A stretch of DNA of 64,000 nucleotides from an uncultured Roseicyclus sp. (lineage in GTDB: Bacteria; Pseudomonadota; Alphaproteobacteria; Rhodobacterales; Rhodobacteraceae), in assembly GCA_947491935.1 (NCBI GenBank), contig CANLLF010000001.1, positions 248,001-312,000 of the forward strand. The letters are read 5' to 3'. The translations under genes and the position numbers were made by a program. Below, one piece after another: positions 44,922-63,922 of the stretch. Numbering within the stretch: position 1 is the stretch's first letter; every line of letters begins with the position of its first letter. The notes beneath the pieces are model-generated. The model searched no databases. It worked only from the letters and a program-made list of their open reading frames with translations, and was not told the origin of the DNA.

Positions 44922-46649
44922 TCACATCTGATCGACCGGGGTGACACCCAAAATACCCAGGCCGTTTGAAATGACAATCGCCACGGCGGAAATCAGGCAT
45001 AATTTCCCGGATGTTGCCGATGGATCATCCTCCTGGAAGAAGCGCAGGTGCGGTTCGGCATTGCCCTTGTTCCACAACGCGTGGAACTCGGAGGCCATAT
45101 CATAGAGGTAGAAGGCCACGCGATGCGGCTCATGGGCAGCTGCCGCGATCTCGATCAGGCGCGGGTATTCGGCGATCTTCGCCGCCAGCGCCAGCTCCGC
45201 CGGATCGTTAACGGTGTTAAGGTTCTCCGGGTCCGGGGTGATCCCTGCCTCCGCCGCCTTGCGCAGCACGGAATGGATGCGCGCATGGGCGTATTGCACG
45301 TACCAAACGGGGTTGTCCTTGGACTGCTCGCGCACCTTGTCGACGTCGAAATCGAGCGGCGCGTCGTTCTTGCGGGTAAGCATGTGGAACCGGGTGACGT
45401 CAGGGCCGACCATCTCCACCACATCGGCCAGCGTCACGAAGGTGCCCGCCCGTTTGGACATCTTCAGCTCTTCATCGCCACGGCGTAACTTCACCAATTG
45501 GGTCAGTTTGACATCCAGCGGCACGCGTCCATCGCTGAGTGCGGAAACCGCCGCCTTCATCCGTTTCACATAACCACCGTGATCGGCGCCGAACACATCA
45601 ATAAGCTCGTCGAAGCCTCTGGAAACCTTATCAAAATGATACGCGATGTCGGGTGCGAAATAGGTCCATGCCCCATCGGATTTCATCACCGGGCGATCAA
45701 CATCGTCACCATGTTCGGTAGACTTGAAAAGCGTCTGTTCGCGCGGCTCCCAATCCTCGGGCTTCTTGCCCTTGGGCGGCTCCAGCACGCCCTCGTAGAT
45801 CAGGCCTTTGTCCCGCAGATCGCCCAGGGCCTCCTCGATCCGACCGGTCCCGTAGAGGGATTTTTCGGAATAGAACACATCCATTTCGACGCCGAGCATC
45901 GCCAGATCGGCCCGGATCAGATCCATCATCTTTTCGGTGGCGAACTCACGGATCTCGGCAAGCCAATACTGCTCCCCCTTGCCAACGAATTGGTCACCAA
46001 CCTTGTCTTTGAGTGCCTGGCCAACTTCGATCAGGTAGTCGCCGGGATAGGTTCCATCCTCGAAAGCGACCTCCTGGCCATGGGCTTCGAGGTAGCGCAA
46101 GTAGACCGACCGGGCCAACACATCGACCTGCGCCCCACCATCGTTGATGTAATATTCCCGCGTCACGTCATAACCGGCAACATCCAAAAGGCTGGCGAGT
46201 GCATCACCAAAGACCGCGCCGCGCGTGTGGCCAACATGCAACGGGCCAGTGGGATTTGCACTGACATATTCGACATTTACGCGCCGACCCTCACCTGTTG
46301 CGGAGCGTCCGAAGGCATCACCTTCGTGCAACACCTGCGCAATCACCCCGCGCCACACATCGCCGGATAGCCGCAGGTTCAGAAAGCCCGGTCCGGCGAC
46401 GTCCGCCGCCTCGATCCTTGGGTCAGCGGCCAGCTTGGCCGCGAGCGCCTCAGCGATATCGCGCGGCTTGGCCGCCGCCGGTTTGGCCAGCACCATGGCC
46501 GCGTTGGTCGCCATATCGCCATGGGCCGCGTCGCGGGGCGGCTCCACCGTAATCGCACGGGTCTCCAAACCGCCCGGCAGCGTGCCTTCGGCAACAAGCG
46601 CATCAATGGCACCCAGAACGGTTTCGCGGATCTCGGCAAACAGGGTCAT
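44922..46649 (-). CDS. argS: arginyl-tRNA synthetase
   Basis: Class I synthetase (575 aa) charging tRNA-Arg. HIGH-like signature [12 protein letters not shown] is near residue 133; the KMSKS-equivalent is KMSKRAGTF near 400; a DALR anticodon-binding domain fills the C-terminus ([15 protein letters not shown] onward). Its length is normal. Upstream are two small secreted-protein genes; downstream is the SPOR-nagZ-scpAB run. One copy of the GTTAA-N4-GTTAA motif lies inside it. Confidence 0.97.
45207..45221 (+). repeat. GTTAA-N4-GTTAA motif, copy 1 (within argS)
   Basis: GTTAACGGTGTTAAG on the + strand; two GTTAA boxes with a 9-bp period, inside argS. Confidence 0.7.
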
Positions 46650-46704
46650 GGCGGTGTCCTCTTACGGTCACCGCGCGGTGTATCACGGCGCGCGCGCGCG
46701 TCAA

Positions 46705-47052
46705 TCAGCCCGGGCAATAGGTGTAGTCAAACACCAGGCCGTCGCGCAGCATCCGCATGATTTCGCCGTCCTGAAGCGGGATCAGCATCATGTTTGCGGT
46801 CCATTCCAGCCCCTCACCGGCGCAATTGCCGATATAGGAATAGCCGTTCGTGCCTTGGATCGGGGTGGGGTTGGAGAGCGTGCAGACCGACTCGTAGAAC
46901 GTCAGGACGTTGTTTTCCAAACGCACGATGGTCTCTTCGGGGTGGGTCGTGCAGGCGCCAAGCTGATACCGGCCATTGGCCACCTGGGCCGACGCGGTAC
47001 TTGCGCCAGCTGCAATCATCAGGGCGGCGATGCCCAGTTTCTTCAAAGTCAT
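46705..47052 (-). CDS. small secreted Cys-rich protein
   Basis: A 115-residue precursor with a signal peptide (residues 1-22, ending ASAQ) and a mature part with four Cys spaced for two disulfides. No family recognised. It looks distantly like the next gene: both have the pattern G-Y-G-x-C ... C-x-L-x-N-P-x-x-I ... Y-x-G-x-C ... TY-x-C-x-x, suggesting tandem paralogs. Confidence 0.7.
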   Translation of the reverse strand: MTLKKLGIAALMIAAGASTASAQVANGRYQLGACTTHPEETIVRLENNVLTFYESVCTLSNPTPIQGTNGYSYIGNCAGEGLEWTANMMLIPLQDGEIMRMLRDGLVFDYTYCPG

Positions 47053-47096
47053 GGATCAAATTCCTTGCATCAAAATGGATGCGCGGAGCTTGAAAA

Positions 47097-47462
47097 TCAG
47101 GGTTCGCACCGCGCGTAAGTATGGGCGATATTGTTGAACACAACGATCACGCCATCAATGGAGGCTTCCCCCACCAACAGCCGGGCCTCGAAATCACCGC
47201 CGGTGTCAGTGCATGCGCCATCGTACAGGAATGTCTCGTCCATGGCGCGGATGTTGATGGGATTGGCCAGATCGCAGCACATTTCTACAAGGCAAAGCGT
47301 TGGAAAGGAGAGTGAGGCCGTGCGTTCCGTCCCGGGCTCAAACCCCTCGGCCGGGCAGCTAAGACCTTGATAGAATAGCCCGTCTTGCGGAAAGGCGTGC
47401 GCAGTTGAAACAGTTAAAGCAATTGTCGCCACCATTGCGGCGGCGCGGGTAAAGATTGTCAT
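47097..47462 (-). CDS. small secreted Cys-rich protein, paralog of its neighbour
   Basis: A 121-residue precursor with a signal peptide (residues 1-23, STAHA). The mature part has six Cys, including a CC pair. The ATG at 47462 is chosen to give a proper signal peptide. Its layout resembles the preceding gene (Cys-L-x-NP-x-x-I core; C-terminal TYARC). Unknown function, probably periplasmic. Confidence 0.68.
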   Translation of the reverse strand: MTIFTRAAAMVATIALTVSTAHAFPQDGLFYQGLSCPAEGFEPGTERTASLSFPTLCLVEMCCDLANPINIRAMDETFLYDGACTDTGGDFEARLLVGEASIDGVIVVFNNIAHTYARCEP

Positions 47463-47484
47463 GATCAGGCTCCGAAATATGAGC

Positions 47485-48660
47485 TTAGGGACGTATCTCA
47501 ACCCTGCCGCCAACCGCCCCACCGATCAACCTTTGGTGGCATTGAAGCGCAAAACGGTCGGTCATGCCCGAGATGTAGTCGGACACGATGCGTGCCAGCG
47601 CGATGTTGTCATCCGCCACATCCTCCACATCCTTGCGCCATTGCTTGGGTAGCTCTGACGGGTTGGCGAGGAAGAAGGGGAAGAGGTCTTCCACCACCTG
47701 CGTGACCTCGGCCCGCATCGCGACCACCGAAGGGGCACGATACATGCGTTTGAATAAAAATGTCCGGATGACTTGCAGATCGCCGAACAACGCCTTGGAA
47801 AAGCGGATAATCGGACGGCCCGCATCGCGCACGTCTTGTGCCGTTTGCGGGTGGATGTCGGCGAGTGTGGCGCGCGCATGGGCGAGCACATCCTCCACCA
47901 GAATGCCGAAGAAACGGCGCAGCGCCTCATGCCGCCTGCGATAGTAGTTGAGGCCCGGATACCGCGCATCGACCGCCGCAAAACAGTCGCGCAGGATCGG
48001 AAGCTCCGCCAATTCATCGGTGGAGAACAGCTCCGCGCGCAGGCCGTCATGCAGATCGTGGTGGTTGTAGGCGATGTCATCCGCGAGCGCCGCAACCTGC
48101 GCCTCGGCGGAGGCATGGGTGTGTAATTCAAGCTCGATATCCGCACAGCTGGCGGCCAGCGCCCAGGGCAACGGCTCGGCGACTGGCCCGTTGTGTTTCG
48201 CAATGCCTTCAAGGGTTTCCCAGGTGAGGTTCAACCCGTCGAACTCGGCATAATGCCGTTCCAGATGGGTCACGATCCGCAAGGCCTGTGCGTTATGATC
48301 GTATCCACCATAGGGCGCCATCAGGGCCTGCAACGCGTCCTCACCGGTATGGCCGAATGGCGGATGGCCCAGATCATGGGCCAGCGCGACGGTTTCCGTC
48401 AGGTCCTCGTCCAGCCCCAGGGCGCGCGCCATCGTACGGGCCACCTGCGCAACCTCCAGCGAATGGGTCAGACGGGTGCGGAAGTAATCCCCCTCATGCT
48501 CCACAAACACCTGTGTTTTATGCTTCAAGCGCCGAAACGCGCTGGAATGAATGATCCGATCCCGGTCGCGCTGAAACGGAGAGCGGTGCACGCTCTCTTC
48601 TTCCGCCACGAGCCGCCCGCGCGTCATCGCCGGGTCGCAGGCATAAGCCGCGCGCATCAT
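47485..48660 (-). CDS. dgt: deoxyguanosinetriphosphate triphosphohydrolase-like protein
   Basis: HD-domain dNTP triphosphohydrolase (391 aa) releasing tripolyphosphate from dNTPs. The metal-binding motif HDLGHPPFGHTGED is near residue 100 with upstream LTHSLEVAQVAR. The start at 48660 (MMRAAY..) follows GGAGG; the frame continues far upstream to 49101 across the opposite-strand IscA-type gene, but that stretch is not coding. First gene of the dgt-argS-nagZ-scp run. Confidence 0.93.
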   Translation of the reverse strand: MMRAAYACDPAMTRGRLVAEEESVHRSPFQRDRDRIIHSSAFRRLKHKTQVFVEHEGDYFRTRLTHSLEVAQVARTMARALGLDEDLTETVALAHDLGHPPFGHTGEDALQALMAPYGGYDHNAQALRIVTHLERHYAEFDGLNLTWETLEGIAKHNGPVAEPLPWALAASCADIELELHTHASAEAQVAALADDIAYNHHDLHDGLRAELFSTDELAELPILRDCFAAVDARYPGLNYYRRRHEALRRFFGILVEDVLAHARATLADIHPQTAQDVRDAGRPIIRFSKALFGDLQVIRTFLFKRMYRAPSVVAMRAEVTQVVEDLFPFFLANPSELPKQWRKDVEDVADDNIALARIVSDYISGMTDRFALQCHQRLIGGAVGGRVEIRP

Positions 48661-48744
48661 CTGCCTCCACGCCAAAGGGCCACCTTGTCCCGGCCCTGCC
48701 CCCTTCATATATTGGCACCCAAGCGATTGCGACAGGTGAAACCC

Positions 48745-49074
48745 ATGCTGAGTATCCCTCCCAAAGTGACGGATCGCGCCTTTGCGCGGCTGGCGGAAAT
48801 CAATGAAGAGGCGGATGCGCCGCAAGCACTCCGCGTGGCGGTCGAGGGCGGTGGGTGTTCCGGCTTTCAGTATGAAATCAAGCTCGATACGCCCGCAGAT
48901 GATGACCTTGTGCTGGAAGGAAACGGCCAGAAAGTTGTGGTCGACACGATCTCCCTGCCCTTCCTGGCCGACGCCGTGATTGATTTCACCGAAGAACTGA
49001 TTGGCGCGCGCTTCACAATCGAGAACCCGAACGCGACGTCGTCTTGCGGGTGTGGCACGTCCTTTTCGATGTAA
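48745..49074 (+). CDS. erpA: iron-sulfur cluster assembly/insertion protein (IscA/ErpA-type)
   Basis: A-type carrier (109 aa) passing Fe-S clusters to apoproteins. The three invariant Cys are Cys38 (GGGCSGF), Cys101 and Cys103 (SSCGCGTSF). The ATG at 48745 gives a standard family length. It is divergent from dgt, 84 bases apart, the usual neighbourhood in Rhodobacterales. ErpA is the best guess among IscA, ErpA and SufA. Confidence 0.9.
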   Translation: MLSIPPKVTDRAFARLAEINEEADAPQALRVAVEGGGCSGFQYEIKLDTPADDDLVLEGNGQKVVVDTISLPFLADAVIDFTEELIGARFTIENPNATSSCGCGTSFSM

Positions 49075-49140
49075 CGCCGGGTTCCGCTGGCGCTTTTCCA
49101 CTGCGATGCTACCCTTTCATCACGCAAGAGAGGGTGCGCC

Positions 49141-50325
49141 ATGGATCTTTCATATTCCCCGCAGGAACAGGCATTTCAGGCAGAAGTCCGCGCGTTTCTG
49201 GCCGAGGCGCTCCCCTCCGATATAAGCAGCCGGGTGGCCTCCGGTGCCGGTGCGACCCGAGACGATATGGAGCGCTGGCACACAATCCTGAACGAAAAGG
49301 GATGGCTTGGCGGCACCTGGCCGGTTGAACATGGCGGTCAGGGCTGGGGGCCAATTGAACTCCACATTTTCGAAGAAGAGAGCGCGCTGGCGAATGCACC
49401 CCGGATCGTGCCGTTCGGGCTCAAGATGCTCGGGCCCGTCCTGATGCAGTTCGGCACCGCCGCGCAGCAGGCCGAATATCTGCCGCGAATCCTGGATGGC
49501 CGCGATTGGTGGTGCCAGGGCTATTCTGAGCCGGGGGCGGGCTCCGACCTTGCCTCCCTCAAGACCCGCGCCGACCGGGATGGCGAGCATTACATCGTCA
49601 ACGGGCAGAAAACCTGGACGACGCTTGGCCAATACGCCAACCGGATCTTCTGCCTCGTGCGTACGAAATTCGAAGGCAAGCCCCAGGAAGGGATCTCGTT
49701 TCTCCTGATGGACCTCGACATGCCGGGTGTCGAAATGCGGCCTATCCGCCTGATTGAAGGCGGGTATGAAGTGAACGAGGTCTTCTTTACCGATGTCCGG
49801 GTACCCGTTGGCAACCTCGTGGGGGAGGAGAATATGGGTTGGACCATCGCCAAGTACCTGCTTGGTCATGAGCGCACGAATATCGCGGGAACCGGGTTCA
49901 GCGTGCAGGCGTATGCGCAACTGAAGGATCTGGCACAACGGGTCACCCGCAATGGCAAGCCCCTGATCCAGAACCCTTTATTCGCGGCCCGCATGGCCAG
50001 CGTGGAGGCTGAACTGGAGGCGATGAAGATAACCAATCTGCGGATGCTGTCGACCGCCGCAAAGGGAGGGCAGCTGACCCACGAGCCGTCGATGTTGAAG
50101 ATCAAGGGCACTGTGATCCGGCAGGAATTGAACGACCTTGCCCGCCGCGCCCTTGGGCCTGCCGCGGCCCCCTTCCCGTCCGAGGATCTCGATAACCTTG
50201 CCATTGCGCCGCCCGGCCATGGGCACAACGCAGCGGGCTACTTCAACAACCGCAAGATCTCGATCTATGGCGGCTCGAACGAGATTCAGCGCAACATTCT
50301 GGCCAAGGGGATGATGCGCCCATGA
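49141..50325 (+). CDS. acyl-CoA dehydrogenase, large subunit-like
   Basis: FAD acyl-CoA dehydrogenase (394 aa). FAD-site motif WCQGYSEPGAGSDLASLKT is near 120, and EVFFTDVRVPVGNLVGEENMG near 218; the C-terminal YGGSNEIQRNILAKGMM is family-standard. Overlaps the next, shorter acyl-CoA dehydrogenase by four bases. Such adjacent pairs in steroid and bile-acid pathways form alpha2beta2 enzymes with FAD bound at the interface; whether this pair does so is inference. Confidence 0.88.
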   Translation: MDLSYSPQEQAFQAEVRAFLAEALPSDISSRVASGAGATRDDMERWHTILNEKGWLGGTWPVEHGGQGWGPIELHIFEEESALANAPRIVPFGLKMLGPVLMQFGTAAQQAEYLPRILDGRDWWCQGYSEPGAGSDLASLKTRADRDGEHYIVNGQKTWTTLGQYANRIFCLVRTKFEGKPQEGISFLLMDLDMPGVEMRPIRLIEGGYEVNEVFFTDVRVPVGNLVGEENMGWTIAKYLLGHERTNIAGTGFSVQAYAQLKDLAQRVTRNGKPLIQNPLFAARMASVEAELEAMKITNLRMLSTAAKGGQLTHEPSMLKIKGTVIRQELNDLARRALGPAAAPFPSEDLDNLAIAPPGHGHNAAGYFNNRKISIYGGSNEIQRNILAKGMMRP

Positions 50326-51401
50326 ATTTCGGGATGTCCGATGATCGGCGCATGTTGTCCGATACGCTGCGCCGTTACCTCGCCGATGCCTACCCGTTCG
50401 AACATCGGACGGCCGTCGCCTACGACGCCCCGTTCCACGATCCGGAAAAATGGGCGGACCTGGCGGAGTTGGGCGTTTTCTACGCCCTTTTTTCGGAAGA
50501 GTGTGGCGGCATGGGCGGGCACGGCTTCGACATCGTCACGGTGTTCACCGAACTGGGCCGCGCGGTCTGTCCCGAACCGGTTCTGGGGCAACTCCTCGCC
50601 GCGTCGTTGCTGCGGCACGCCCCCGACGCATTAGAGCCGATCCTTGACGGCTCGGACCGATATGCTTTGGCGGTGGGAGAGATCGACGCCCCCTATGAAT
50701 ATGGAACGCCGAAGACCGCAGCCACGCATGTTTCGGGTGCGAGCTATACGCTTTCCGGACGCAAAACCGTGGTCTACGGCGCCGCCAGCGCGAACAGGTT
50801 TCTCGTTACGGCGTCACTGCCGAATGGACCCCTGGGTTTGTTTAACGTCAGCGTCGAAGATATTGACGTCATTGGCTATTCCATGATCGATGGAGGACCG
50901 GCGGGGGAGGTTGTGCTGGACAGCTCGCCGGGAACCCTGATCGTTGATGACGCTGGTCCTTTACTTGAAACCACACTGGATCTTGGTGCGCTGGCGCTCT
51001 GTGCCGAAGCGTTTGGGGCGATGGAAATCGCGCAAGACATGCTGGTTGACTACCTCAAGACCCGCAAACAATTCGGCCAACCCATCGGCGCGTTTCAAGC
51101 CCTGCAACACCGCGCCATCGACCTCGCGATCGAAATCGAACAGGCGCGATCGATCATCATCCTGGCTGCATCGGCGGAAGGCACGCCGGACTTCCCGAAA
51201 CGCGCCGCGCAGGCCAAGCACCTTGTGGGCAGGATCGCCCGGCAGGTGGCGGAGGAGGCCATCCAGATGCATGGCGGCATCGGGATCACGTGGGAATACC
51301 CCCTCTCTCACTACGCCAAACGGCTGGTGATGATCGACCATCAGCTTGGCGACAGTGACCATCACCTGGAACGGCTCATGGCCGGTTTGGTCGAAGGCTA
51401 A
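50322..51401 (+). CDS. acyl-CoA dehydrogenase, partner subunit-like
   Basis: A shorter acyl-CoA dehydrogenase (359 aa). It has the fold's C-terminal motif MHGGIGITWEYPLSHYAKR, while the middle domain lacks clear FAD-contacting signature residues seen in its neighbour. The ATG overlaps the upstream stop. The most economical reading is a heteromeric enzyme with the preceding gene acting on branched or ring-derived acyl-CoAs. No other beta-oxidation genes are in the window. Confidence 0.85.
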   Translation: MNFGMSDDRRMLSDTLRRYLADAYPFEHRTAVAYDAPFHDPEKWADLAELGVFYALFSEECGGMGGHGFDIVTVFTELGRAVCPEPVLGQLLAASLLRHAPDALEPILDGSDRYALAVGEIDAPYEYGTPKTAATHVSGASYTLSGRKTVVYGAASANRFLVTASLPNGPLGLFNVSVEDIDVIGYSMIDGGPAGEVVLDSSPGTLIVDDAGPLLETTLDLGALALCAEAFGAMEIAQDMLVDYLKTRKQFGQPIGAFQALQHRAIDLAIEIEQARSIIILAASAEGTPDFPKRAAQAKHLVGRIARQVAEEAIQMHGGIGITWEYPLSHYAKRLVMIDHQLGDSDHHLERLMAGLVEG

Positions 51402-51498
51402 AGATACCTCCAGCGGGACGACTAGGGAAAAGATGCAGCCACAGCCCTAGTCAGATTGCCGCTTCATCTATCGAGGGCCATTCGGGTGCGTATCGGTC

Positions 51499-52512
51499 TT
51501 ATGCGCCCAAACGGGCAGCGATGCTGTCTGTCGTCACGGTTCCGATCACTTCCCCGTTCTCCTCCACGGCCAGCGGGGCCGGGCTTTCCGCGAAGCGTGT
51601 CAGGATATCGCGTACCGGCATTTCGATGGGGATGCGGGGGGCGTCCGTGGGGACGTCCTGCATCACATCGCGGGCCGTCAGGACGCCCAACGGGTTCATA
51701 TTGGACACAAATTCAGCCACGTATTCCGTTGCCGGTTCCGAGAAAATCTGCCGCGGTGTGCCGATCTGAACGATCCGCCCGCCCTCCATGATCGCGATCC
51801 GGTTGCCGATCTTGAAGGCTTCGTCCAGATCGTGGCTGACGAAGATGATGGTCCGCTGAAGGTCGCGTTGGAGGTCGAGCAATTCGTCTTGCAGCTTGGA
51901 GCGGATCAGCGGATCGAGGGCGGAGAACGGCTCATCCATCAGGAGGATCGGCGCCTCGGTCGTGAAGGCCCGTGCAAGGCCCACGCGCTGCTGCATGCCG
52001 CCTGACAATTCTCCGACCTTCCGTTCGGCCCATTCGCTGAGGTTGACGAGGGCCAATTGCCGGTCCACCCGCTCGTGGCGTTCGGCTGGAGCCACGCCCG
52101 CCAGTTCCAGCCCGAGCCCCACATTCTCACGCACCGTCCGCCAGGGCAGAAGGCCGAATTGCTGGAACACCATGGAGACGCAATTCTGCCTCAGGTAGCG
52201 CAGTTCGCCGGTCGCAGCACCCGGAAGCGTGCAGGACCAATCCTGATCGAACACCTCCACCTTGCCCCGCGCAACGGGGTTAAGGCCGTTAACCGCGCGC
52301 AACAAAGTGGATTTGCCTGAGCCGGACAGGCCCATCAGCACCAGGATTTCACCGGATTCGACATCCAGGGAGCAGTTGTGGACACCCAGAACATGATCCG
52401 TTTCGGTCTGGATCTCGCTTCGGGATTGGCCGTCATCGGCCAGTTTCAGGGCGCGCGCCGGGCGGGGGCCGAACATGATGCAGACGTCCTTGAAAGATAC
52501 CGCTGTGCTCAT
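51499..52512 (-). CDS. choV: choline ABC transporter ATP-binding protein
   Basis: ATPase of a ProV/ChoV-type quaternary-amine importer (337 aa). Walker A GLSGSGKST (residues 65-73), signature LSGGMQQRVGLARA, Walker B ILLMDEPFSALDP. A C-terminal CBS-like region (residues 265-337) is usual. The start overlaps the GFA-gene stop by four bases. A copy of the GTTAA motif lies in it, within the segment coding for VNGLN. Downstream of choW and the GFA gene in one transcript. Confidence 0.94.
   Translation of the reverse strand: MSTAVSFKDVCIMFGPRPARALKLADDGQSRSEIQTETDHVLGVHNCSLDVESGEILVLMGLSGSGKSTLLRAVNGLNPVARGKVEVFDQDWSCTLPGAATGELRYLRQNCVSMVFQQFGLLPWRTVRENVGLGLELAGVAPAERHERVDRQLALVNLSEWAERKVGELSGGMQQRVGLARAFTTEAPILLMDEPFSALDPLIRSKLQDELLDLQRDLQRTIIFVSHDLDEAFKIGNRIAIMEGGRIVQIGTPRQIFSEPATEYVAEFVSNMNPLGVLTARDVMQDVPTDAPRIPIEMPVRDILTRFAESPAPLAVEENGEVIGTVTTDSIAARLGA
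52279..52293 (+). repeat. GTTAA-N4-GTTAA motif, copy 2 (within choV)
   Basis: GTTAAGGCCGTTAAC on the + strand, opposite to the coding strand of choV, where it reads in the Val-Asn-Gly-Leu-Asn frame. Confidence 0.7.
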
Positions 52513-52919
52513 GTCCTGGCCTCGTATCGCAGGGTTCCGGCAACGCCGTCCGGTGCCCCCCCATCGGCGGAGTGGTTTTGCCCATCCATCACCAGCACCT
52601 CGGCCAGATCAAAGGGGGACATCCCCTCGATACAGGCCAGGTTCACGCCGTATTCATTGGGGTTGGAACGGCGGCGGTGATGAGTGTAGATCCCGCAGGT
52701 CTTGCAGAAATAGTGCTCCGCCGTGCGGGTGTTGAATTGGTAGAGCGCCAGGTTGTCCGCGCCCTCCAGGATCTCGACCCCGTCAAGCGGAGCCGACACC
52801 GCCACCGCGCCGCGCATCCGGCACAGCGTGCAATCGCAGCGGCGCGCCGAGGCGATCCCGTCGCTCAATTCGACCCGCAGCTTCACCGCGCCGCAATGGC
52901 AGCTTGCATTCACATTCAT
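52509..52919 (-). CDS. GFA-family (CENP-V/formaldehyde-activating-like) zinc protein
   Basis: A 136-residue zinc-binding protein of the glutathione-dependent formaldehyde-activating (GFA) fold. Cys motifs CHCGAVK (residues 7-13), CDCTLCRMRG (29-38) and YFCKTCGIYTHHRR (90-103) are all present. It is inserted between choW and choV with four-base overlaps on both sides, so it is translated with the importer. Choline demethylation releases one-carbon units, so a formaldehyde-related role is conceivable but unproven. Confidence 0.88.
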   Translation of the reverse strand: MNVNASCHCGAVKLRVELSDGIASARRCDCTLCRMRGAVAVSAPLDGVEILEGADNLALYQFNTRTAEHYFCKTCGIYTHHRRRSNPNEYGVNLACIEGMSPFDLAEVLVMDGQNHSADGGAPDGVAGTLRYEART

Positions 52920-53905
52920 GTTTTCACCCTCAACGCGCGGTCGAGCACGATGGCCACGACCACGATGATGAACCCGCTTTCAAAGCCAAGCCCCGTATTC
53001 ACCTGGTTCAGCGCACGCACCACTGGTACGCCCAACCCGTCCGCGCCCACAAGCGCCGCGATCACCACCATCGAGAGCGACAGCATGATCGTCTGGTTCA
53101 GGCCGGCCATGATCTGCGGCAGCGCATAAGGCAGCTCCACCTTCCACAGCTTCTGCCGCCCCGTCGCGCCAAAGGCATCCGCGGCTTCCAGCAGGGCCGT
53201 GGGCGTGGAGGAAATGCCCAGATGCGTCAGCCGGATCGGGGCGGGCAGCACGAAGATCACCGTGGCGATCAGGCCGGGCACCATGCCAATGCCGAAAAAC
53301 ACGATGGCGGGAATGAGATAGACGAAGGTTGGCAGGGTTTGCATCAGGTCCAGAACCGGACGCATCCACGCATACAGGCGGGGCCGGTGGGCGGCCGCGA
53401 TGCCGATGGGCACGCCCACGCCCATACACACCACGCAAGCCGACAGAACCAGCGTGAGGCTTTCTGTCGTTTCCTCCCAATAGCCCTGATTCACGATGAA
53501 CAGGAACCCGACCGCGACCAGCGCCGGGACCTTCCAGCCCCGATGCAACCACCAGGCGAGGCCCGCGAAAATCGCGATAATCAGGAAGGCGTGCCATTCC
53601 TGGGGATACAGAAACGACGCATCGCGCAGGCGAACGTCTGAAATCCAGCTGGTATTCGGCGGCTCCTGCAACAACGCCAGAATGGCCTCGATCATCGCCT
53701 CAAGGCCCACCGCGACGGCATCGAAGATGAACGCCCCGTTGGCCTGCAACCAGTCGAACATCGCTTCGGCCGCATCGCCCACACGCAGCTTGCATTCCGT
53801 CAGCAAGGTGATCGGGCCGGTCACCGCGTCATCATTCGGGAAGTCACATTCCGTCAGGCCGTCCTCCCCCAACCAGGGAAGCCTGTTTCTCAACCATTCC
53901 AGCAT
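52916..53905 (-). CDS. choW: choline ABC transporter permease
   Basis: ChoW/ProW-type permease (329 aa) with about six to seven helices. The EAA-like loop is near residue 245 (LEAADAFGATGRQKLWKVELP). The N-terminal ~90 residues are a periplasmic/cytoplasmic extension usual for this group. Coupled by overlap to the GFA gene. It pairs with ChoV and the periplasmic ChoX, whose gene lies 750 bases away beyond an opposite-strand GST gene. Confidence 0.92.
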   Translation of the reverse strand: MLEWLRNRLPWLGEDGLTECDFPNDDAVTGPITLLTECKLRVGDAAEAMFDWLQANGAFIFDAVAVGLEAMIEAILALLQEPPNTSWISDVRLRDASFLYPQEWHAFLIIAIFAGLAWWLHRGWKVPALVAVGFLFIVNQGYWEETTESLTLVLSACVVCMGVGVPIGIAAAHRPRLYAWMRPVLDLMQTLPTFVYLIPAIVFFGIGMVPGLIATVIFVLPAPIRLTHLGISSTPTALLEAADAFGATGRQKLWKVELPYALPQIMAGLNQTIMLSLSMVVIAALVGADGLGVPVVRALNQVNTGLGFESGFIIVVVAIVLDRALRVKT

Positions 53906-53982
53906 TCTGCACGTCCCTTGCCGCTCTTACCCGCCCATGGCACCCTTACCTTCCGTTTCATCACATCGCGGAGGTGCATGCC

Positions 53983-54624: not shown

Positions 54625-54640
54625 AGCGCCGCCCTTTCTT
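54615..54640. terminator. bidirectional terminator between GST and choX
   Basis: Stem CGGCGC / GCGCCG around a five-base loop, with a T-rich tract on each side (CCCTTTCTTT on +; TCTTTTT on -). It serves the convergent GST and choX genes. Confidence 0.7.
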
Positions 54641-54653
54641 TCATGGCCTGCGT

Positions 54654-55598: not shown

Positions 55599-55634
55599 GA
55601 ATTGTCTTCTCCCGGTTGATGTCTGATCTTTTTG

Positions 55635-55654
55635 TTGATTGACCAGTCAATTAA
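55635..55654. promoter_or_regulatory. BetI-type operator
   Basis: Palindrome TTGATTGAC-CA-GTCAATTAA in the choX-betI gap, resembling known BetI boxes (ATTGA..TCAAT). It lies between the divergent choX and betI promoters and could repress both until choline is present. Confidence 0.75.
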
Positions 55655-55694
55655 AATACTATTTCTGGAGCGATGCAACCTTGGAGAAATCGCA

Positions 55695-56267
55695 ATGCCC
55701 CGCACCGGTATGATGGCTATACGGAAGGACGCGCTTGTCAACGCAACGATTTCGGAGATCGGTCGCGCGGGCAGCCTGGATGTGACCGTGGGACAGATTG
55801 CCAAGGTCGCGGGCGTCAGCAGCGCATTGGCGCATCACTACTTCGGGTCCAAGGACGATCTTCTTCTGGCCGCAATGCGCGCGATCTTGCGGGAATTCGG
55901 CGCGGCGGCGCGGGCGGAACTGGCCAAAGCCACCACCCCCATGCAGCGTCTGGACGCCATCGCACGGGCCAGCTTTGGCGGCAAGAACTTCAGCCCCGAC
56001 GTCGTGTCGGCCTGGTTGACCTTCTACGTCATGGCGCAACGCGACGCGGAGGCCGCGCGCCTGTTGCGGGTGTATCAGCACCGGTTGGTATCGAACCTGA
56101 CCCACGGGTTAAGGCCGTTAACCTCTGAGCCCCGGCGGATCGCCGAGACCGCCGCCGCGTTGATCGACGGCCTTTATATCCGCCATGCCCTGGCCGAGGT
56201 CGGGCCGCCCGACGGAACGGCCGCCGCCGCCCGTGTCATGGATTATCTGAACGTGGCATTGGCATGA
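55695..56267 (+). CDS. betI: choline-responsive TetR repressor BetI
   Basis: TetR-family regulator (190 aa) with an N-terminal helix-turn-helix (residues 20-60; VTVGQIAKVAGVSSALAHHY) of the BetI subfamily and FGGKNFSP in the ligand-binding domain. It represses the bet genes without choline. The ATG at 55695 follows GGAG; an in-frame start at 55632 lies over the operator. Overlaps betC by four bases. A GTTAA motif copy is inside. Confidence 0.94.
   Translation: MPRTGMMAIRKDALVNATISEIGRAGSLDVTVGQIAKVAGVSSALAHHYFGSKDDLLLAAMRAILREFGAAARAELAKATTPMQRLDAIARASFGGKNFSPDVVSAWLTFYVMAQRDAEAARLLRVYQHRLVSNLTHGLRPLTSEPRRIAETAAALIDGLYIRHALAEVGPPDGTAAAARVMDYLNVALA
56108..56122 (+). repeat. GTTAA-N4-GTTAA motif, copy 3 (within betI)
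   Basis: GTTAAGGCCGTTAAC on the + strand, in the same direction as betI, read as Leu-Arg-Pro-Leu-Thr. Confidence 0.7.
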
Positions 56268-57802
56268 GCAAACCGAACATCCTTATCCTGATGGTGGACC
56301 AATTGAACGGGACGTTGTTCCCCGACGGCCCCGCCGATTGGCTCCACGCGCCCAACCTCAAGGCGCTGGCAGAACGGTCAACCCGGTTTGCCAACAGCTA
56401 CACCGCCTCGCCCCTCTGCGCGCCGGGTCGGGCGTCGTTTATGTCCGGCCAGTTGCCGTCGCGCACGGGTGTCTACGACAATGCCGCCGAGTTCGTGTCC
56501 TCGATCCCGACCTATGCCCACCATCTGCGCCGCGCGGGATATTACACCGCGCTGTCGGGCAAGATGCATTTCGTCGGCCCTGACCAGCTGCACGGCTTCG
56601 AGCAGCGCCTGACCACCGATATCTATCCGGCCGATTTCGGCTGGACGCCCGATTACCGCAAACCGGGTGAGCGGATCGATTGGTGGTATCACAATATGGG
56701 CTCGGTCACCGGCGCGGGCGTGGCCGAGATCACCAACCAGATGGAATATGACGATGCGGTGGCCTTCGAGGCCGAGCAAAAGCTGTATGATCTGTCGCGC
56801 GGTCATGATGACCGGCCCTGGTGCCTGACCGTCAGCTTCACGCATCCCCATGACCCCTATGTCGCGCGCAAGCGGTTTTGGGACCTCTATGAGGAGTGCG
56901 AGCACCTTCTGCCCGAGGTGCCCGACCTTGGCTACGATGCGCAAGACCCTCATTCGCAACGAATTTTCGATGCCAACGATTGGCGTAGCTTCGACATTTC
57001 CGAAGAGGACGTGCAGCGATCCCGCCGCGCCTATTTCGCCAACATCTCCTATCTGGATGAGAAGATCGGCAGCGTGTTGGATGTGCTGAAACGCACGCAG
57101 CAGGACGCCGTCGTGATCTTCGTCTCCGATCATGGCGACATGCTGGGAGAGCGCGGATTGTGGTTCAAGATGACCTTCTTCGAAGGCTCCGCACGCGTGC
57201 CGCTGATGATCTCGGCACCGGGGATGGAACCGGGCTTGGTCACCGATCCTGTCTCCACCATCGATCTGTGCCCCACCCTCTGCGACCTTGCCGGGGTGTC
57301 TATGGCGGAGGTCATGCCGTGGACCGATGGCGAAACGCTGGTGCCGCTCGGCCAAGGGGTTAACCGCGTTAATCCTGTTGCGATGGAATATGCGGCGGAG
57401 GCCTCCCACTCCCCACTTGTTGCGCTCCGCGAGGGCCGCTGGAAATACACCAACTGCGCCATCGACCCCGAGCAACTCTTCGATATGGAGGCCGATCCGC
57501 AGGAGCTTAAGAACCTTGCTGAAGATCCAACCCATGCCGCGACGTTGGAGCGCTTCCGGGTGAAAGCTGCTGCGCGCTGGGACCTTGAGACCTTTGATGC
57601 AGACGTGCGCGAAAGCCAGGCACGCCGCTGGGTCGTTTATGAATCGCTTCGCAACGGCGCCTATTTCCCGTGGGATTTCCAGCCCCTGCGCGACGCCTCC
57701 AACCGCTACATGCGCAATCATATGGATCTCAATATTGTTGAGGAAAATCAACGCTTTCCGCGGGGTGTGCAACCTTGCACACCGCCCAGAGAACAGGACT
57801 AG
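56264..57802 (+). CDS. betC: choline-sulfatase
   Basis: Type I sulfatase (512 aa) hydrolysing choline-O-sulfate to choline and sulfate. The formylglycine motif CAPGR is at residues 52-56; metal ligands include the N-terminal LMVDQLNG and VFVSDHGDMLGERG near 285. The fold and length match rhizobial BetC. It is coupled to betI. Its product choline is oxidised by the next two enzymes. A GTTAA copy lies within. Confidence 0.95.
   Translation: MSKPNILILMVDQLNGTLFPDGPADWLHAPNLKALAERSTRFANSYTASPLCAPGRASFMSGQLPSRTGVYDNAAEFVSSIPTYAHHLRRAGYYTALSGKMHFVGPDQLHGFEQRLTTDIYPADFGWTPDYRKPGERIDWWYHNMGSVTGAGVAEITNQMEYDDAVAFEAEQKLYDLSRGHDDRPWCLTVSFTHPHDPYVARKRFWDLYEECEHLLPEVPDLGYDAQDPHSQRIFDANDWRSFDISEEDVQRSRRAYFANISYLDEKIGSVLDVLKRTQQDAVVIFVSDHGDMLGERGLWFKMTFFEGSARVPLMISAPGMEPGLVTDPVSTIDLCPTLCDLAGVSMAEVMPWTDGETLVPLGQGVNRVNPVAMEYAAEASHSPLVALREGRWKYTNCAIDPEQLFDMEADPQELKNLAEDPTHAATLERFRVKAAARWDLETFDADVRESQARRWVVYESLRNGAYFPWDFQPLRDASNRYMRNHMDLNIVEENQRFPRGVQPCTPPREQD
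57359..57373 (+). repeat. GTTAA-N4-GTTAA motif, copy 4 (within betC)
   Basis: GTTAACCGCGTTAAT on the + strand, read as Val-Asn-Arg-Val-Asn in betC. Confidence 0.7.
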
Positions 57803-57808
57803 GCCGCC

Positions 57809-59254
57809 ATGCAACCTACCGCCTCCCACTACGTCAACGGCGCCTATCTGGAAGACGATGCAGGCGCCGAGATCCCCGTGATCTTCCCCGCCACGGGTGA
57901 GCAGATCGCACTGGTTCACGAAGCCACGCCCGCCGTGATCGAAGCAGCGCTGGCCTCGGCCAAGGCCGCGCAGGCAGACTGGGCGGCGATGGTGCCCGTT
58001 GAACGTGGCCGCATCCTGCGCCGCGCTGCCGACATCATGCGTGAGCGGAACCGGGAGCTGTCCGAGCTTGAAACCCTCGACACCGGCAAACCCATCCAGG
58101 AAACGTTGGTGGCGGACGCGACTTCCGCCGCTGACGCGCTGGAGTATTTCGGTGGTTTGGCCGCGACACTGACCGGAGAACACGTGCCCCTTGGCGGCGA
58201 TTGGGCCTATACGATGCGGGTGCCGCTCGGCGTGTGCGTGGGGATCGGCGCGTGGAACTACCCCACCCAGATCGCGGCATGGAAAGGCGCCCCTGCGCTG
58301 GCGTGCGGCAACACGATGATCTTCAAGCCGTCTGAACAAACGCCGCTCTGCGCCCTCAAAGTGGCCGAAATCCTGACCGAGGCCGGAGCACCTCCGGGTG
58401 TCTACAACGTCATTCAAGGCGCTGGGACGGTTGGGAAATCTCTGGTGGAGGATCCCCGCACGGCCAAAGTCTCCCTCACAGGCTCGGCGGCGACGGGAAA
58501 AAAGGTTTACGCCGCTGCAGCCGCGCAGATGAAGCATGCAACGATGGAATTGGGTGGGAAATCGCCTTTGATCATCTTTGATGATGCCGATCTCGAATCT
58601 GCCGTCTCCGCCGCGATCAACGCCAATTTCTACGCCTCCGGGCAGGTTTGTTCCAACGGCACCCGGGTGTTTGTTCAGAACGATATCAAGGAGGCATTCC
58701 TGTCGCGGCTGGCCGAACGCACCGCGCAAGCCATCATTGGCGATCCGCGTGATGAGGCGACGAATTTCGGCCCCATGGTAAGTGAAGAACAGCTCGCAAT
58801 CACATGTTCCTTCATCGAAAAGGGCCTGTCCGAAGGCGCGCGGCTAATTCATGGTGGCAAACGGCTGGATCAGCCCGGCTGCTATATCGAGCCCACGATC
58901 TTCGCCGACGTGACCGATGACATGACCATCGCACGGGAGGAGATCTTTGGCCCGGTCATGTCCGTTTTGGATTTTGACACCGAGGACGAGGTGCTGATCC
59001 GCGCCAACGCCACCGAACTCGGCCTGTCCGGGGCCGTCTTCACCGCCGACCTGACCCGCGCGCACCGCGTTGTCCACGCCATCGATGCCGGGTCCGTTTG
59101 GATCAATCAATACAATCTCACCCCCGTCGAAGTCCCGTTCGGCGGCATGAAAGGCTCAGGCGTGGGGCGCGAAAACTCCAGGGCGGCCATCGAGCATTAT
59201 TCGCAACTCAAGACCGTGTATGTCGGCATGTCCCCGGTGGAGGCCGCATTCTGA
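57809..59254 (+). CDS. betB: betaine aldehyde dehydrogenase
   Basis: NAD-dependent aldehyde dehydrogenase (481 aa) oxidising betaine aldehyde to glycine betaine. Catalytic Glu in [12 protein letters not shown] near 249 and catalytic Cys in [12 protein letters not shown] near 282. The N-terminal FPATGEQIA and [19 protein letters not shown] are typical of BetB. It follows betC by six bases and overlaps betA by one base. Confidence 0.95.
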
Positions 59255-60924
59255 TGGAAGCCGATTACATCATCGTCGGTGCAGGCTCTGCAGGCTGTGC
59301 AATGGCTTACCGTCTGTCCGAGGCGGGAAAATCCGTGCTGGTCATCGAACATGGCGGATCCGACTGGGGGCCGTTCATCAATATGCCCGCCGCGCTCAGC
59401 TATCCGATGGGTATGAGACGGTACGATTGGGGCTATGTGACGGAGCCCGAACCGCACATGAACAACCGCGTCATGGCCTGCCCGCGCGGTAAAGTCATCG
59501 GCGGGTCCAGCTCCATCAACGGCATGATTTATGTCCGCGGCCACGCCCGCGACTTCGACACATGGGCTGACATGGGTGCAGACGGTTGGTCCTACGCAGA
59601 CGTTCTGCCCTATTTCAAACGGGCGGAAACCTGGCACGGCGATGCGGGTGATCCAGCCTTTCGCGGCCATGACGGCCCGGTACATGTCACCCGTGGCCCT
59701 CGTAAAAACCCTCTGTATCAAGCCTTTATCGATGCGGGAGTTGCTGCGGGATATGGCGCAACCGATGATTACAATGGCCATCGCCAGGAAGGGTTTGGCG
59801 CGTTTGAGATGACGATCTGGCAAGGCAAGCGCTGGTCCGCGGCCTCCGCCTACCTCAAGCCGGCGCTTCGACGCCCCAACTGCGATATGGTGAAGGGCTT
59901 GGTCGAAAAGATCGAGATCACGGAAGGGCGTGCCACCGGCGTGCGACTTGCCGGTGGTCAACTGGTCCGTGCCCGGGCAGAGGTTATCTTGAGTGCCGGT
60001 GCGATCAATTCACCTAAAATTTTAATGCTTAGTGGAATTGGGCCGGCTAACCATCTGGCGGATCACGGCATTTCCATGATCGCGGATCGCGCTGGCGTGG
60101 GCCAAAACCTCCAGGACCACCTGGAATTGTACGTTCAGTTCGCGGCCTCAAAGCCCGTTTCGATCGCACCTTATTGGTCGCTCTGGGGCAAGGCCCTCGT
60201 TGGCGCGCAATGGCTCTTCACGAAGACCGGTCTGGGCGCGTCGAACAACTTCGAGGCCTGCGGGTTCATCAGGTCGAAGAACGGTGTGGAATACCCTGAT
60301 ATTCAATATCATTTTCTCCCAATCGCGGTACGGTACGACGGCAAGACCCCGCCGGGCGGGCACGGGTTCCAGGCCCATACGGGCCCCATGCGGTCACCCT
60401 CGCGCGGGGATATCACCTTGCGCAGCGCCGATCCCGCCGACGCGCCTCGTATCCGCTTCAACTACATGTCGACCGAGCAGGACTGGCAGGATTTCCGCCG
60501 CGCCATCCGTTTGACTCGCGAAATTATGGCGACGGATCCTATCGCGCAATATGTCGACCATGAGATCCAGCCTGGCGACGCGGCGCAAGATGACGATGCC
60601 ATCGACGCCGTGATCCGGGAACACGCCGAAAGTGCGTATCACCCCTGCGGCACAGCACGAATGGGGCAGCGTGACGATCCAAACGCCGTTGTGGACCCCG
60701 AGAACCGAGTGATCGGCGTCGACGGGTTGCGCCTTGCCGATAGTTCAATTTTCCCTTTGATCCCAAATGGTAATCTGAATGCGCCGTCGATCATGGTCGG
60801 TGAAAAAGCCGCCGACCATATCCTTGGACGTCGCCTTGCGCCAGAAAATCTACGGCCCTGGATCGCGCCAGATTGGCGGAATGCGCAGCGCGAAGCCTAT
60901 GCCCTGGCGGACGCGGCCGAATAG
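59254..60924 (+). CDS. betA: choline dehydrogenase
   Basis: GMC-family FAD oxidoreductase (556 aa) oxidising choline to betaine aldehyde at the membrane. FAD motif [18 protein letters not shown] (residues 4-21), GMC signatures [18 protein letters not shown] near 78 and catalytic HPCGTARMG near 465. The ATG at 59254 shares its A with the betB stop (TGATG). Last gene of betICBA. Confidence 0.96.
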
Positions 60925-60926
60925 GG

Positions 60927-62141
60927 CTAATCGCCGATCAAAAGCACCCGGCCGAACGGGGTTTCTGGTGCGCTGCGTCCGGGCACGGCCCACAAAACCG
61001 GAAAGGATGGGGCCGGGCCAAACGGCGCGTCGAGATCCGTCAGCATGATGAGGATCGAGGGCTGGAGACGGGCAGCAGCCTCCATGACCGGCGCAAAATC
61101 CGTGCCACCGCCCGTCCGTAAATCTGCCCCGGTCAGAGACCACGATCCGGCCCCCAATTGCCGCTGCTCGTGAACGTCCTCATCGAAAGCCAAAAGGTGG
61201 GCTTCGGCTCCGGTTCGTCGGCTAACGCCCTCTGCTTCGGCGGAAAAAAGGGCGAGTGTCATTGGGTCGATGGAACTGCTTGTATCGAGACCAATCGCCA
61301 CCCGGGGCCGCCGGGCATCACGGGCGCGGCCAGGCTCGAACACCGGTTCCTGAGCACCGCGCGCCATGGCATCGGCAAGCATGGCCACCCATCTTCCCGC
61401 GGGACGGCGATGCGAGCGTGTTGGCGTATCGGACAAAGCGCGCGCCAGAATCCCGCGAAGCTGAACTTCCCATGGCACGGCGGCCGGCGACAGGTCGGTC
61501 AGGATCGCGCCCAATCGCCCGATGCCGGTGCCCGCCTTACGGCCCGCCTCCAGCGCGCGGATCAACTGATTGCGCCAGTCGGCAGCGGATTGCTCTTCGC
61601 CGTCCTGGTCTGCCTCCCCCAGTTCCAGATCGCGAGCAAAGCCCTTCTTGGCGCCAAAATCCCGAGCCTTTTCCGCACGCTGCGAGTCAGCGTGCAGGAA
61701 CATGGCAAGACGATCTGTGTCCCATTCACCCAAGGCAGCCACGGGAGATCGTGCAGCATGGTCAAGCTCCGACAGCAGATCCATCAGCAAAATGGCCGGA
61801 CGCGGCAATGCATGCCCAGCCAACAGAAGGGTTTCGTTGATGATACCATCCGCCGCCAAGCCATAGAGCGACGGGTCGAACCGGTCGCCCAAACGCTCGG
61901 CAATCGCGGCTTGCCTGTTCGAATGCCTGAGCGCCACATGCAAGACATGGTGGGCAACCATCCCCACCTGTTCAGCTAATCCCAGCGACGCGAAGATCGG
62001 CCCGTAAATGGTTGTATTCCCATGCGTTCGCGTTTCTCCCCGCCCATCGCGATGCCGACACCAGAGGGCCAGGACGGCAAGCGCGGGGTCGGTGTCCCCC
62101 AGATGCGCAAGTGCAAGCGCCGCCCGCTCCGAATGGCTCAA
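60927..62141 (-). CDS. VWA-domain protein, metallopeptidase-like N-terminus (DUF2201-type)
   Basis: A protein of about 404 residues. The C-terminal half has a von Willebrand factor A domain with a MIDAS motif (DTSSSIDP near 280, GGGTDFAPV, and LTDLDAPFG). The N-terminal half has HVLHVALRH, a putative zinc-peptidase-like motif lacking the usual HEXXH. The start is taken as the TTG at 62141, giving a four-base overlap with the AAA+ gene (TTGA); a longer frame to 62213 is less likely. The VWA-AAA+ pairing is common in assembly/chaperone systems. Confidence 0.82.
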   Translation of the reverse strand: MSHSERAALALAHLGDTDPALAVLALWCRHRDGRGETRTHGNTTIYGPIFASLGLAEQVGMVAHHVLHVALRHSNRQAAIAERLGDRFDPSLYGLAADGIINETLLLAGHALPRPAILLMDLLSELDHAARSPVAALGEWDTDRLAMFLHADSQRAEKARDFGAKKGFARDLELGEADQDGEEQSAADWRNQLIRALEAGRKAGTGIGRLGAILTDLSPAAVPWEVQLRGILARALSDTPTRSHRRPAGRWVAMLADAMARGAQEPVFEPGRARDARRPRVAIGLDTSSSIDPMTLALFSAEAEGVSRRTGAEAHLLAFDEDVHEQRQLGAGSWSLTGADLRTGGGTDFAPVMEAAARLQPSILIMLTDLDAPFGPAPSFPVLWAVPGRSAPETPFGRVLLIGD

Positions 62142-63232
62142 GGCAGGCCCGCCGCTGCACGTGTTTGCGCGTATTCTGCGTAGGCGTCGGATCCGACAAA
62201 CGCGTCCTGCCATCCCTTTTCCATCGCGCGCCCGATCAGCAGTTCAAACCCAAAGGTCCTTAGTTCCGCCAACGGCAACCCCAATCGCTCCAACCTGTTC
62301 AAATCCGCGAGAATCTCAATGGCGGCCGGCATCCTGGTCCGATCAACTGCACCGATCAGCCCATAGGTTAATGCCGTTAACCCATGCAACGTTTGCGGAT
62401 ACATCGCCGCGCGGTCCGCGCGCGATGCGTCCAACATCGCATCGACCTGAACACTCGCCACGATCTCATCGGCAATCAGCGCGAATTCCGCGGCGGCCGC
62501 CTCCCCCACGGTCCCTGCAATCATGACCTGCCGCGCGGCTCGATCCGAAATCGTTTTCATGATCGCGCTGACGCGGGCCCAGGCGCGGGGCGTACAGGCC
62601 ACCGCTTCACCGCGGCGCAGCGCCTCTTCCGTGGTCTCCAGAAGATCCGGGCGTGTCCGCAGAAACGCCGCTACCGTGGGATGGATTTCCGCCGCTGGCG
62701 CATAGTTCTTTAGCCAATCATCGGCGTTGGCCCGGACAATCATGTGGATCAGCCGGTCAGAGAGCGCCGTGCCCATCTCGTAGGCGACCGCACCATCTTC
62801 CACCATATTGCCCGCCGCAATGACCATCACCTGATCCGGCAGCATGTGGCGACCGATGCGGCGTTCCTGAAGCAGCCCATATACGGTCGGTTGCAGCGAC
62901 GGTGCCGCGGCCGTTAACTCATCAAGAAAAAGGATGGCGGGGGCCTCGGAATCCGGCAAATCCTCCGGTCGATACCAGACGGTCTTGCCCGCATCGTGAT
63001 CATAAAACGGCAAACCGCGCAAATCCTGCGGCTCAATCGTGGTGAGGCGGAGATCGAATAACTCCGCCCCGATCTCCCGGCTAAGCTGCTGGACAATATC
63101 GGTCTTTCCAACGCCAGGCCGCCCGTGCAGCATCCAGCTTGCCGTCATGTCACCGGCCAATTGTGCGTTCCACCCGGCCCGGAGCACGCGCAGGGCCTCA
63201 CCCGCCGACACCTTTGTTACATTGATCGCCAT
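62138..63232 (-). CDS. MoxR-type AAA+ ATPase
   Basis: AAA+ ATPase (364 aa) of the MoxR group. Walker A GRPGVGKT (residues 38-45), Walker B ILFLDELTAA near 100, sensor 1 MVIAAGNMVEDGAV near 130. MoxR proteins work with VWA partners to mature or assemble complexes. Overlaps the VWA gene. Two GTTAA motif sites are in this and the following gene. Confidence 0.88.
   Translation of the reverse strand: MAINVTKVSAGEALRVLRAGWNAQLAGDMTASWMLHGRPGVGKTDIVQQLSREIGAELFDLRLTTIEPQDLRGLPFYDHDAGKTVWYRPEDLPDSEAPAILFLDELTAAAPSLQPTVYGLLQERRIGRHMLPDQVMVIAAGNMVEDGAVAYEMGTALSDRLIHMIVRANADDWLKNYAPAAEIHPTVAAFLRTRPDLLETTEEALRRGEAVACTPRAWARVSAIMKTISDRAARQVMIAGTVGEAAAAEFALIADEIVASVQVDAMLDASRADRAAMYPQTLHGLTALTYGLIGAVDRTRMPAAIEILADLNRLERLGLPLAELRTFGFELLIGRAMEKGWQDAFVGSDAYAEYAQTRAAAGLP
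62367..62381 (+). repeat. GTTAA-N4-GTTAA motif, copy 5 (within the AAA+ gene)
   Basis: GTTAATGCCGTTAAC on the + strand, antisense to the AAA+ gene where it falls on Leu-Thr-Ala-Leu-Thr codons. Confidence 0.7.
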
Positions 63233-63235
63233 CGC

Positions 63236-63922
63236 TCAGGCCTCCGCCACGTGATGATCCATCCAGGCCGCCAATCGGGCATGGGCCGATACGCCCGCCG
63301 CTTCGACCCGAACCTCCCGCATCATCGTGTCCAACCTCAAATTGGCGCGGTGAAAGTCCCGTTCCGTCACGGTGTCGTCGAACAATGTGAACAAGATGTC
63401 GCGGTCTCCCTCATCCAGGTCCAGGACGTGGGGGGATGGCTCCGCCGATTGCACGGAGACAAGCGTTAATGGCGTTAACCGTGCGAGTTCTGATTGCTCC
63501 GTGAACAAAAGCAGTTCGCCCGCCTCAATCCCGCGGCGCGCTGCAATCCTGCGCAAGGCGGCCTTGGCTCGAAATGAGACCGCATCGATGATCCGCTCGG
63601 CCTCAGCCTCATCCATCAATCGCTCCCGTGCCTTGTCCGACAATCGAAGGACCTTCAACTCGACGACACCGATCAGCAGGACCATCGCCAGCGGCGCTTG
63701 TGTCACCGGGAGGGCCAGATCGCGGGAAAACAACAAGACGATCACGAACGGCAACAACGCTGTCAGATATCGCAGCAACTGCACTTCAACGAGCAACCGC
63801 GCCCAGAGCCCCACGCTCCCGCCGCGCGGGATAACCTGCACCCGTCCAAAGATTTTTTTGGGAAGAGACCGGGTTTCAAGAACGCCGGGATTGCGCAAGG
63901 TCTCGGGGGAAAGAACGAACAT
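63236..63922 (-). CDS. membrane protein upstream of the MoxR ATPase
   Basis: A 228-residue protein with two strong hydrophobic helices near residues 45-90 and a soluble C-terminal half. The ATG at 63922 is chosen because GC at third positions drops upstream; the frame stays open to the window edge, so a longer start cannot be excluded. It is three bases from the AAA+ gene, so it belongs to the same operon and may tether the MoxR-VWA pair to the membrane. Family not recognised. Confidence 0.6.
   Translation of the reverse strand: MFVLSPETLRNPGVLETRSLPKKIFGRVQVIPRGGSVGLWARLLVEVQLLRYLTALLPFVIVLLFSRDLALPVTQAPLAMVLLIGVVELKVLRLSDKARERLMDEAEAERIIDAVSFRAKAALRRIAARRGIEAGELLLFTEQSELARLTPLTLVSVQSAEPSPHVLDLDEGDRDILFTLFDDTVTERDFHRANLRLDTMMREVRVEAAGVSAHARLAAWMDHHVAEA
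63465..63479 (+). repeat. GTTAA-N4-GTTAA motif, copy 6 (within the terminal gene)
   Basis: GTTAATGGCGTTAAC on the + strand, antisense to the gene, falling on Leu-Thr-Pro-Leu-Thr codons. Confidence 0.7.

Follow-up and report, generated by a model that had tools for sequence, protein, structure and literature searches.

A palindromic TTAA-pair motif concentrated near dif in some species of an alphaproteobacterial genus points to a possible undescribed system of chromosome-terminus marking

We describe a short DNA motif, GTTAA-N4-GTTAA, that is repeated in a 64,000-nt stretch of the genome of an uncultured Roseicyclus sp. (assembly GCA_947491935.1, contig CANLLF010000001.1). This stretch, the window hereafter, corresponds to positions 248001-312000 of contig C1 in the genome that we call G000 (4.65 Mb, 14 contigs). 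The repeats belong to a set of sites that is concentrated around the dif site in several species of the genus, that is selected as DNA rather than as protein, and that is present in some species and absent as a whole from others. Tens of copies of a palindrome with these properties, lying within genes, have the look of a terminus-marking binding site. We consider it likely that the repeats are copies of a palindromic site for a putative sequence-specific DNA-binding protein, probably a dimer, and that the array labels the replication-terminus domain. The results suggest an undescribed system for marking or organising the chromosome terminus. A search of PubMed Central (PMC) full text, with subscription papers and preprints outside its scope, found no description of the motif or of any terminus motif in Rhodobacteraceae.

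Symmetrised counts give the consensus GTTAAC-GNC-GTTAAC, a palindrome with imperfect copies, and a profile of about 21 bp when the weaker flanks are included, A(A/T)nGG-TTAAC-GSC-GTTAA-CCn(A/T)T. The core is a TTAA-N5-TTAA pair, with a spacing of 9 bp, and we refer to such pairs as sites. In 1.2 Mb of the congener G002 we found 73 TTAA pairs at the 9-bp spacing, compared to 13 at 11 bp and 0-7 at every other spacing up to 40 bp. The 11-bp pairs (TTAA-N7-TTAA) have the spacing of the CtrA consensus and form a distinct, smaller set, which fits the remark in a preliminary description of the window that the motif is two bases short of CtrA. The same description took the motif to be polar, and this part has to be given up. 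The asymmetric sites of G002 number 7 forward and 7 reverse to the left of dif, and 12 and 8 to the right (to 2.5 Mb). Since they face both ways in both arms, polarity is not a property of the motif; the one-way look of the original 14-mer arises because it picks one side of imperfect palindrome copies. The cluster of sites in G000, presented below, has nine forward-only, no reverse-only and two symmetric sites. This uniform direction is probably chance plus the inheritance of individual sites.

A generic dif consensus gave no credible site, and a loose search found dif in G002. Using the G002 sequence as a query with at most 3 mismatches, we located one dif in each of the 13 genomes of the genus. 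On the 3.81-Mb contig of G002, parS (0.133 Mb) and dif (1.969 Mb) are 1.84 Mb apart, and both the GC skew and the polarity of the KOPS-like sequence GGGNAGGG flip at 1.96-1.98 Mb. The interval from −0.60 to +0.76 Mb around dif holds 63 of the 68 sites listed for this genome; the listed positions cover 88 of 89 strand matches, the other probably being the opposite strand of the last listed site. The same arrangement is seen for 43 of 43 sites in G012 (−0.44 to +0.72 Mb, on a circle taken as 3.6 Mb) and for 47 of 47 in G004 (−0.90 to +0.53 Mb, two circle lengths being assumed). With positions read by eye, all 35 sites of G011 are within 0.87 Mb of dif and all 13 of G009 within 0.77 Mb. In same-genus genomes with a mapped origin and dif, the motif region thus extends over 1.0-1.4 Mb around the terminus and holds tens of copies. 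The exact sequence of parS (TGTTTCACGTGAAACA), the ParB site expected near the origin, is by contrast a separate pair found in 12 of the 13 genomes and set apart from the motif.

The preliminary description had proposed a chromosome-organising motif, like KOPS (FtsK-orienting sequences), matS or AIMS (architecture imparting sequences), with a positional or strand bias. The positional bias is present around dif in the relatives and matS is the best fit of the three, while no strand bias is seen in the arms of G002 and the non-polar motif disfavours the KOPS-like and AIMS-like versions.

Symmetric sites are unevenly placed in G002:C1:1370000-2500000, where they make up 16 of 42 sites to the left of dif and 1 of 30 to the right (to 2.5 Mb); 3 further symmetric sites lie beyond 2.5 Mb. 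The same genome has 6 sites in 5.1 kb across ordinary-looking genes (C1:1923512-1928631). Similar local clusters are found in G012 (four sites, 2094193-2098227) and G004 (four sites, 1001032-1005055).

Within the window we found exactly six matches to GTTAA-N4-GTTAA, all on the + strand and at the places first reported, and none in the first 45 kb (Table 1). Dinucleotide shuffles of the window (n = 100) gave 0 matches. An independent gene-calling script of our own places all six copies within genes, on both gene strands and in differing frames, as had been described; gene names in this report are assigned by eye. The window ends inside a larger cluster. The whole of G000 contains 22 sites and 11 of these fall in the 49 kb of C1:293207-342261, where uniform placement would give 0.23 (Poisson P ~2e-15). 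Ten of the 11 are wholly within called genes. Six G000 sites outside the cluster were inspected and have ordinary neighbours.

Table 1. Sites of the motif in the window and the part of the cluster that the window covers.
Feature	Position in window	Strand	Sequence	Context
Site 1	45207..45220	+	GTTAACGGTGTTAA	within − strand gene 44922-46649, argS-like
Site 2	52279..52292	+	GTTAAGGCCGTTAA	within − strand gene 51499-52512, ABC-transporter ATPase-like
Site 3	56108..56121	+	GTTAAGGCCGTTAA	within + strand gene 55695-56267, betI-like
Site 4	57359..57372	+	GTTAACCGCGTTAA	within + strand gene 56264-57802, choline-sulfatase-like
Site 5	62367..62380	+	GTTAATGCCGTTAA	within − strand gene 62138-63232
Site 6	63465..63478	+	GTTAATGGCGTTAA	within − strand gene 63236-63970
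Window share of the 49-kb, 11-site cluster	45207..64000	.		continues past the window to C1:342261 with 5 more sites

The dif site of G000 is on another contig, C3, with one site 0.5 kb from it. To relate the cluster to the terminus we used G002, with which the first 390 kb of C1 are collinear in inverted order (G002 1.62-1.33 Mb). The counterpart of the cluster in G002 is 1.370-1.402 Mb, the outer left edge of the site-bearing domain. Further inside, C1:1-293 kb contains 2 sites, compared to 19 in G002 1.405-1.62 Mb.

The motif is carried by 8 of the 13 genomes of the genus (G000, G002, G004, G006, G009, G010, G011 and G012), with 19-89 strand-counted matches compared to 3-10 for a reversed control, which has a different letter order and serves as a rough yardstick only; G006 has 40/38 matches. 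The fragmentary draft G008 has 1 copy. The remaining four, G001, G003, G005 and G007, are non-carriers, and an ihfA-zapT tree groups them in one supported clade. A small sample of G001, its first 60 kb, has no TTAA pair at 9 bp; the CtrA-like spacing of 11 bp (5 pairs) is the only one that recurs. None of 392 genomes from other genera of the family is enriched, in a survey of one genome per genus plus one congener (a non-carrier) that a patchy system elsewhere could escape. Every genome with more than 5 matches has a higher control, the highest counts of 22, 19, 13, 13 and 12 being set against control counts of 64, 43, 33, 55 and 44. For comparison, 80 named loci with an orthologue of the choline-sulfatase gene contain 1 site in 1.60 Mb.

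We addressed the level at which selection acts by shuffling synonymous codons within genes. In the 45 genes of C1:290-345 kb, 200 shuffles gave a mean of 0.375 sites and a maximum of 3 compared to 10 observed, and in G002 the expectation was 6.4 compared to 62 observed, so that the sites are far above a codon-aware background in both genomes. The alignments tell the same story. In the carrier G002, with a DNA identity of 0.759 over 41 kb, 7 of the 11 cluster sites can be aligned and 5 of those 7 positions also have the motif. The non-carrier G001 is equally distant (DNA identity 0.756 over 57 kb); here all 11 can be aligned and the motif is present at none. The early proposal that selection is on DNA, not protein, is thereby upheld. 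Roseicyclus and Roseibacterium provide the closest loci that carry a name, and in each of three such loci 0 of 5 aligned positions are sites. Only these three loci, G002 and G001 give unbiased conservation, as the loci of G004, G009, G010 and G011 were chosen because they bear sites.

Individual sites illustrate how the DNA and the peptide can part. At site 2 (C1:300279) the peptide VNGLNP is identical in G000, G001 and G002, yet the position is a site in G002 and not in G001; likewise at C1:342248 the peptide is the same in all three genomes and the DNA site exists only in G000 and G002. Site 1 (C1:293207) is also a site in G002 and not in G001, and here the peptide of both carriers is also different from that of G001. 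At C1:322437 the G000 peptide differs from that of G001, and G002 does not align. Site 3 recurs in G002, G004 and G009 and site 4 in G009 but not in G002. Site 5 is also a site in the sister species G010, where site 6 reads GTTAACGGCGTTAAC; G002 is unaligned at both. None of sites 3 to 6 is a site in G001. For 10 of the 11 cluster sites no gap is found nearby when they are aligned with G001 (all 11) and G002 (7 of them), and this indicates gain or loss by substitution and not by insertion; the exception is C1:336517. Synteny links the cluster to regions with sites in G002, G004, G009, G010 and G011. In G001 the genes of the region follow the order of G000, except for a few that are also missing from G002.

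Several observations weigh against a terminus label. Five of the 68 listed G002 sites are in the origin half. Judged by eye, G011 is one-sided, with 34 of 35 sites to the left of dif, and G009 is without a site within ~370 kb of dif, unlike matS. Most G000 sites are in one 49-kb block, which plain terminus-marking explains incompletely, and four of the 13 congeners, the non-carriers, have 0 copies. The binding protein, too, was not found. The MatP family (PF06303) has no match at E<=1 in any of the 13 genomes of the genus, in a search that gave a match over the cut-off in 1 of 14 control genomes, with E. coli listed first. Comparisons of cluster genes, shared small proteins and site-adjacent genes did not reveal the binder either. 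Between G000 C1:280-356 kb and the corresponding G001 stretch, 5 genes have no match; the G002 stretch has no match for any of the 5 either, and hence the two carriers share no gene there that G001 is missing. The small proteins shared by 1.2 Mb of G002 and 1.19 Mb of G000 C1, a minor part of either genome, include only ordinary-looking regulators (partial sequences, judged by eye). The 10 sites of the G002 stretch that are outside called genes have no convincing self-regulating DNA-binding gene next to them.

One explanation is that the sites are the DNA target of ZapT, a MerR-family terminus-binding protein known from Caulobacter. All 13 genomes of the genus have the ihfA-zapT pair, which in G002 falls within the site-bearing domain, and two ZapT residues past the wing separate the 8 carriers from the 4 non-carriers (A/D to S and Q to K; loci L176-L188). 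Those two residues, however, are also what one would see from an arbitrary change on the branch leading to the non-carriers. The first helix-turn-helix and the wing, the parts expected to read the bases, are nearly identical in carriers and non-carriers, and the sole helix-turn-helix change (D/G) does not track the motif, as the carrier G009 has the G of the non-carriers. In Caulobacter crescentus, ZapT is reported to bind 10 places, mostly in open reading frames and biased to the terminus, for which a consensus was not found (PMC7188993). Our sites share the terminus bias, the placement mostly in open reading frames and the alphaproteobacterial host, and differ in having a clear motif, whereas none is known for ZapT. 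The same study presents ZapT as conserved in proteobacteria (PMC7188993), yet the motif is not enriched in the other genera sampled. On balance we regard ZapT as an unlikely reader of the sites.

The form of GTTAAC-N3-GTTAAC resembles the operator of a dimeric repressor, and CtrA too recognises TTAA pairs. A role as operators for an ordinary transcription factor, or as CtrA sites, is nevertheless hard to reconcile with a set that lies mostly around dif and in which 63 of the 73 sites in the G002 stretch, like 10 of the 11 cluster sites of G000, are wholly within called genes. At a coding fraction of 0.908 in that stretch, promoters are not preferred. With the CtrA-spaced pairs forming their own set, we give this alternative very little weight. 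It is conceivable that the sites act as a trap for replication forks, similar to Tus/Ter or RTP, since the domain surrounds dif and the asymmetric sites of the G000 cluster face one way only. Such a trap has opposite polarity in the two arms, which is not what G002 presents, and the palindromic consensus, the share of symmetric sites in the left arm and the extension of the sites to 0.6-0.9 Mb from dif make it highly improbable. Finally, the rarity of TTAA lends any cluster a striking look, and mobile palindromic repeats inserted within genes are known elsewhere. That composition, codon usage or inserted repeats made the pattern is nonetheless extremely improbable given the codon-preserving shuffles, the lack of gaps near the sites and the lack of a comparable excess at other spacings.

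A terminus label read by a putative dimeric protein has its closest parallel in matS and MatP, which are found in Escherichia coli and other gammaproteobacteria. Both motifs are short palindromes with a 3-bp centre that occur in many copies around dif and are confined to the terminus domain, here within 0.9 Mb of dif for 63/68 (G002), 43/43 (G012) and 47/47 (G004) sites. The arms differ, as they are GTTAAC here and the matS consensus, GTGACRNYGTCAC, is not matched. No MatP gene was detected with the family search above, and the density of sites in G009 and G011 does not peak at dif. In E. coli, matS is given as 23 sites in an 800-kb Ter domain (PMC3330122), with a density that culminates at dif and that matters locally for stopping the condensin MukBEF (PMC10945525). 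MatP is stated to be conserved only in enteric-related gammaproteobacteria (PMC7858052), while the present system occurs in only part of one alphaproteobacterial genus. KOPS share with our motif the chromosome-scale distribution defined relative to dif and differ in being polar. The sites of Noc and SlmA, which act in nucleoid occlusion, are also palindromic and spread over a large chromosomal domain. They are depleted near the terminus, where the present sites are concentrated.

By analogy with MatP on matS, the putative protein would bind the sites and may gather or tether the terminus domain, or limit the Smc-ScpAB condensin there. In G000 and its sister species the set has either contracted or failed to expand. 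Its remainder is for the most part a single dense cluster at the domain's outer left edge, with scattered copies besides, one of which is the site 0.5 kb from dif. We speculate that such a dense edge array could limit Smc-ScpAB, in analogy to matS density and MukBEF. A fuller scenario, which we offer tentatively and as possible rather than established, is an independently evolved terminus-domain system. Its DNA-binding protein would be new and unrelated to MatP and ZapT; its sites would have spread by point substitution, in places with changed amino acids, across ~1 Mb surrounding dif in some species of this one genus; it would mark the points at which Smc-ScpAB stops or unloads, or at which the terminus is kept at the division site; and the G000 species would represent a compact version whose dense array lies at the edge of the domain.

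An alphaproteobacterial terminus-domain motif that some congeners have and others lack, although the gene order around the cluster is shared, amounts to a natural experiment. The contrast between carriers and non-carriers would allow the binder to be found by genome comparison. It would also let one follow the rise or loss of a site network and ask if a terminus domain is needed. More generally, the motif illustrates that coding sequence can be shaped by selection on chromosomal sites.

The surroundings of the cluster have some features of their own. An scpB-like and an scpA-like gene are located at window 41298-42823 (C1:289298-290823), 2-4 kb from the first site of the cluster. Counterparts are also present in the non-carrier G001, and the proximity may therefore be a coincidence. 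One TTAA-N7-TTAA pair with the CtrA-like spacing is found at window 2714-2728 (C1:250714); pairs of this kind are uncommon and separate from the 9-bp motif. The GC content drops to 0.55-0.59 at window 27000-36000, compared to ~0.62 around it, and a tRNA-Leu gene (35256-35340) is near the right end of this stretch, which may be an island integrated beside the tRNA gene.

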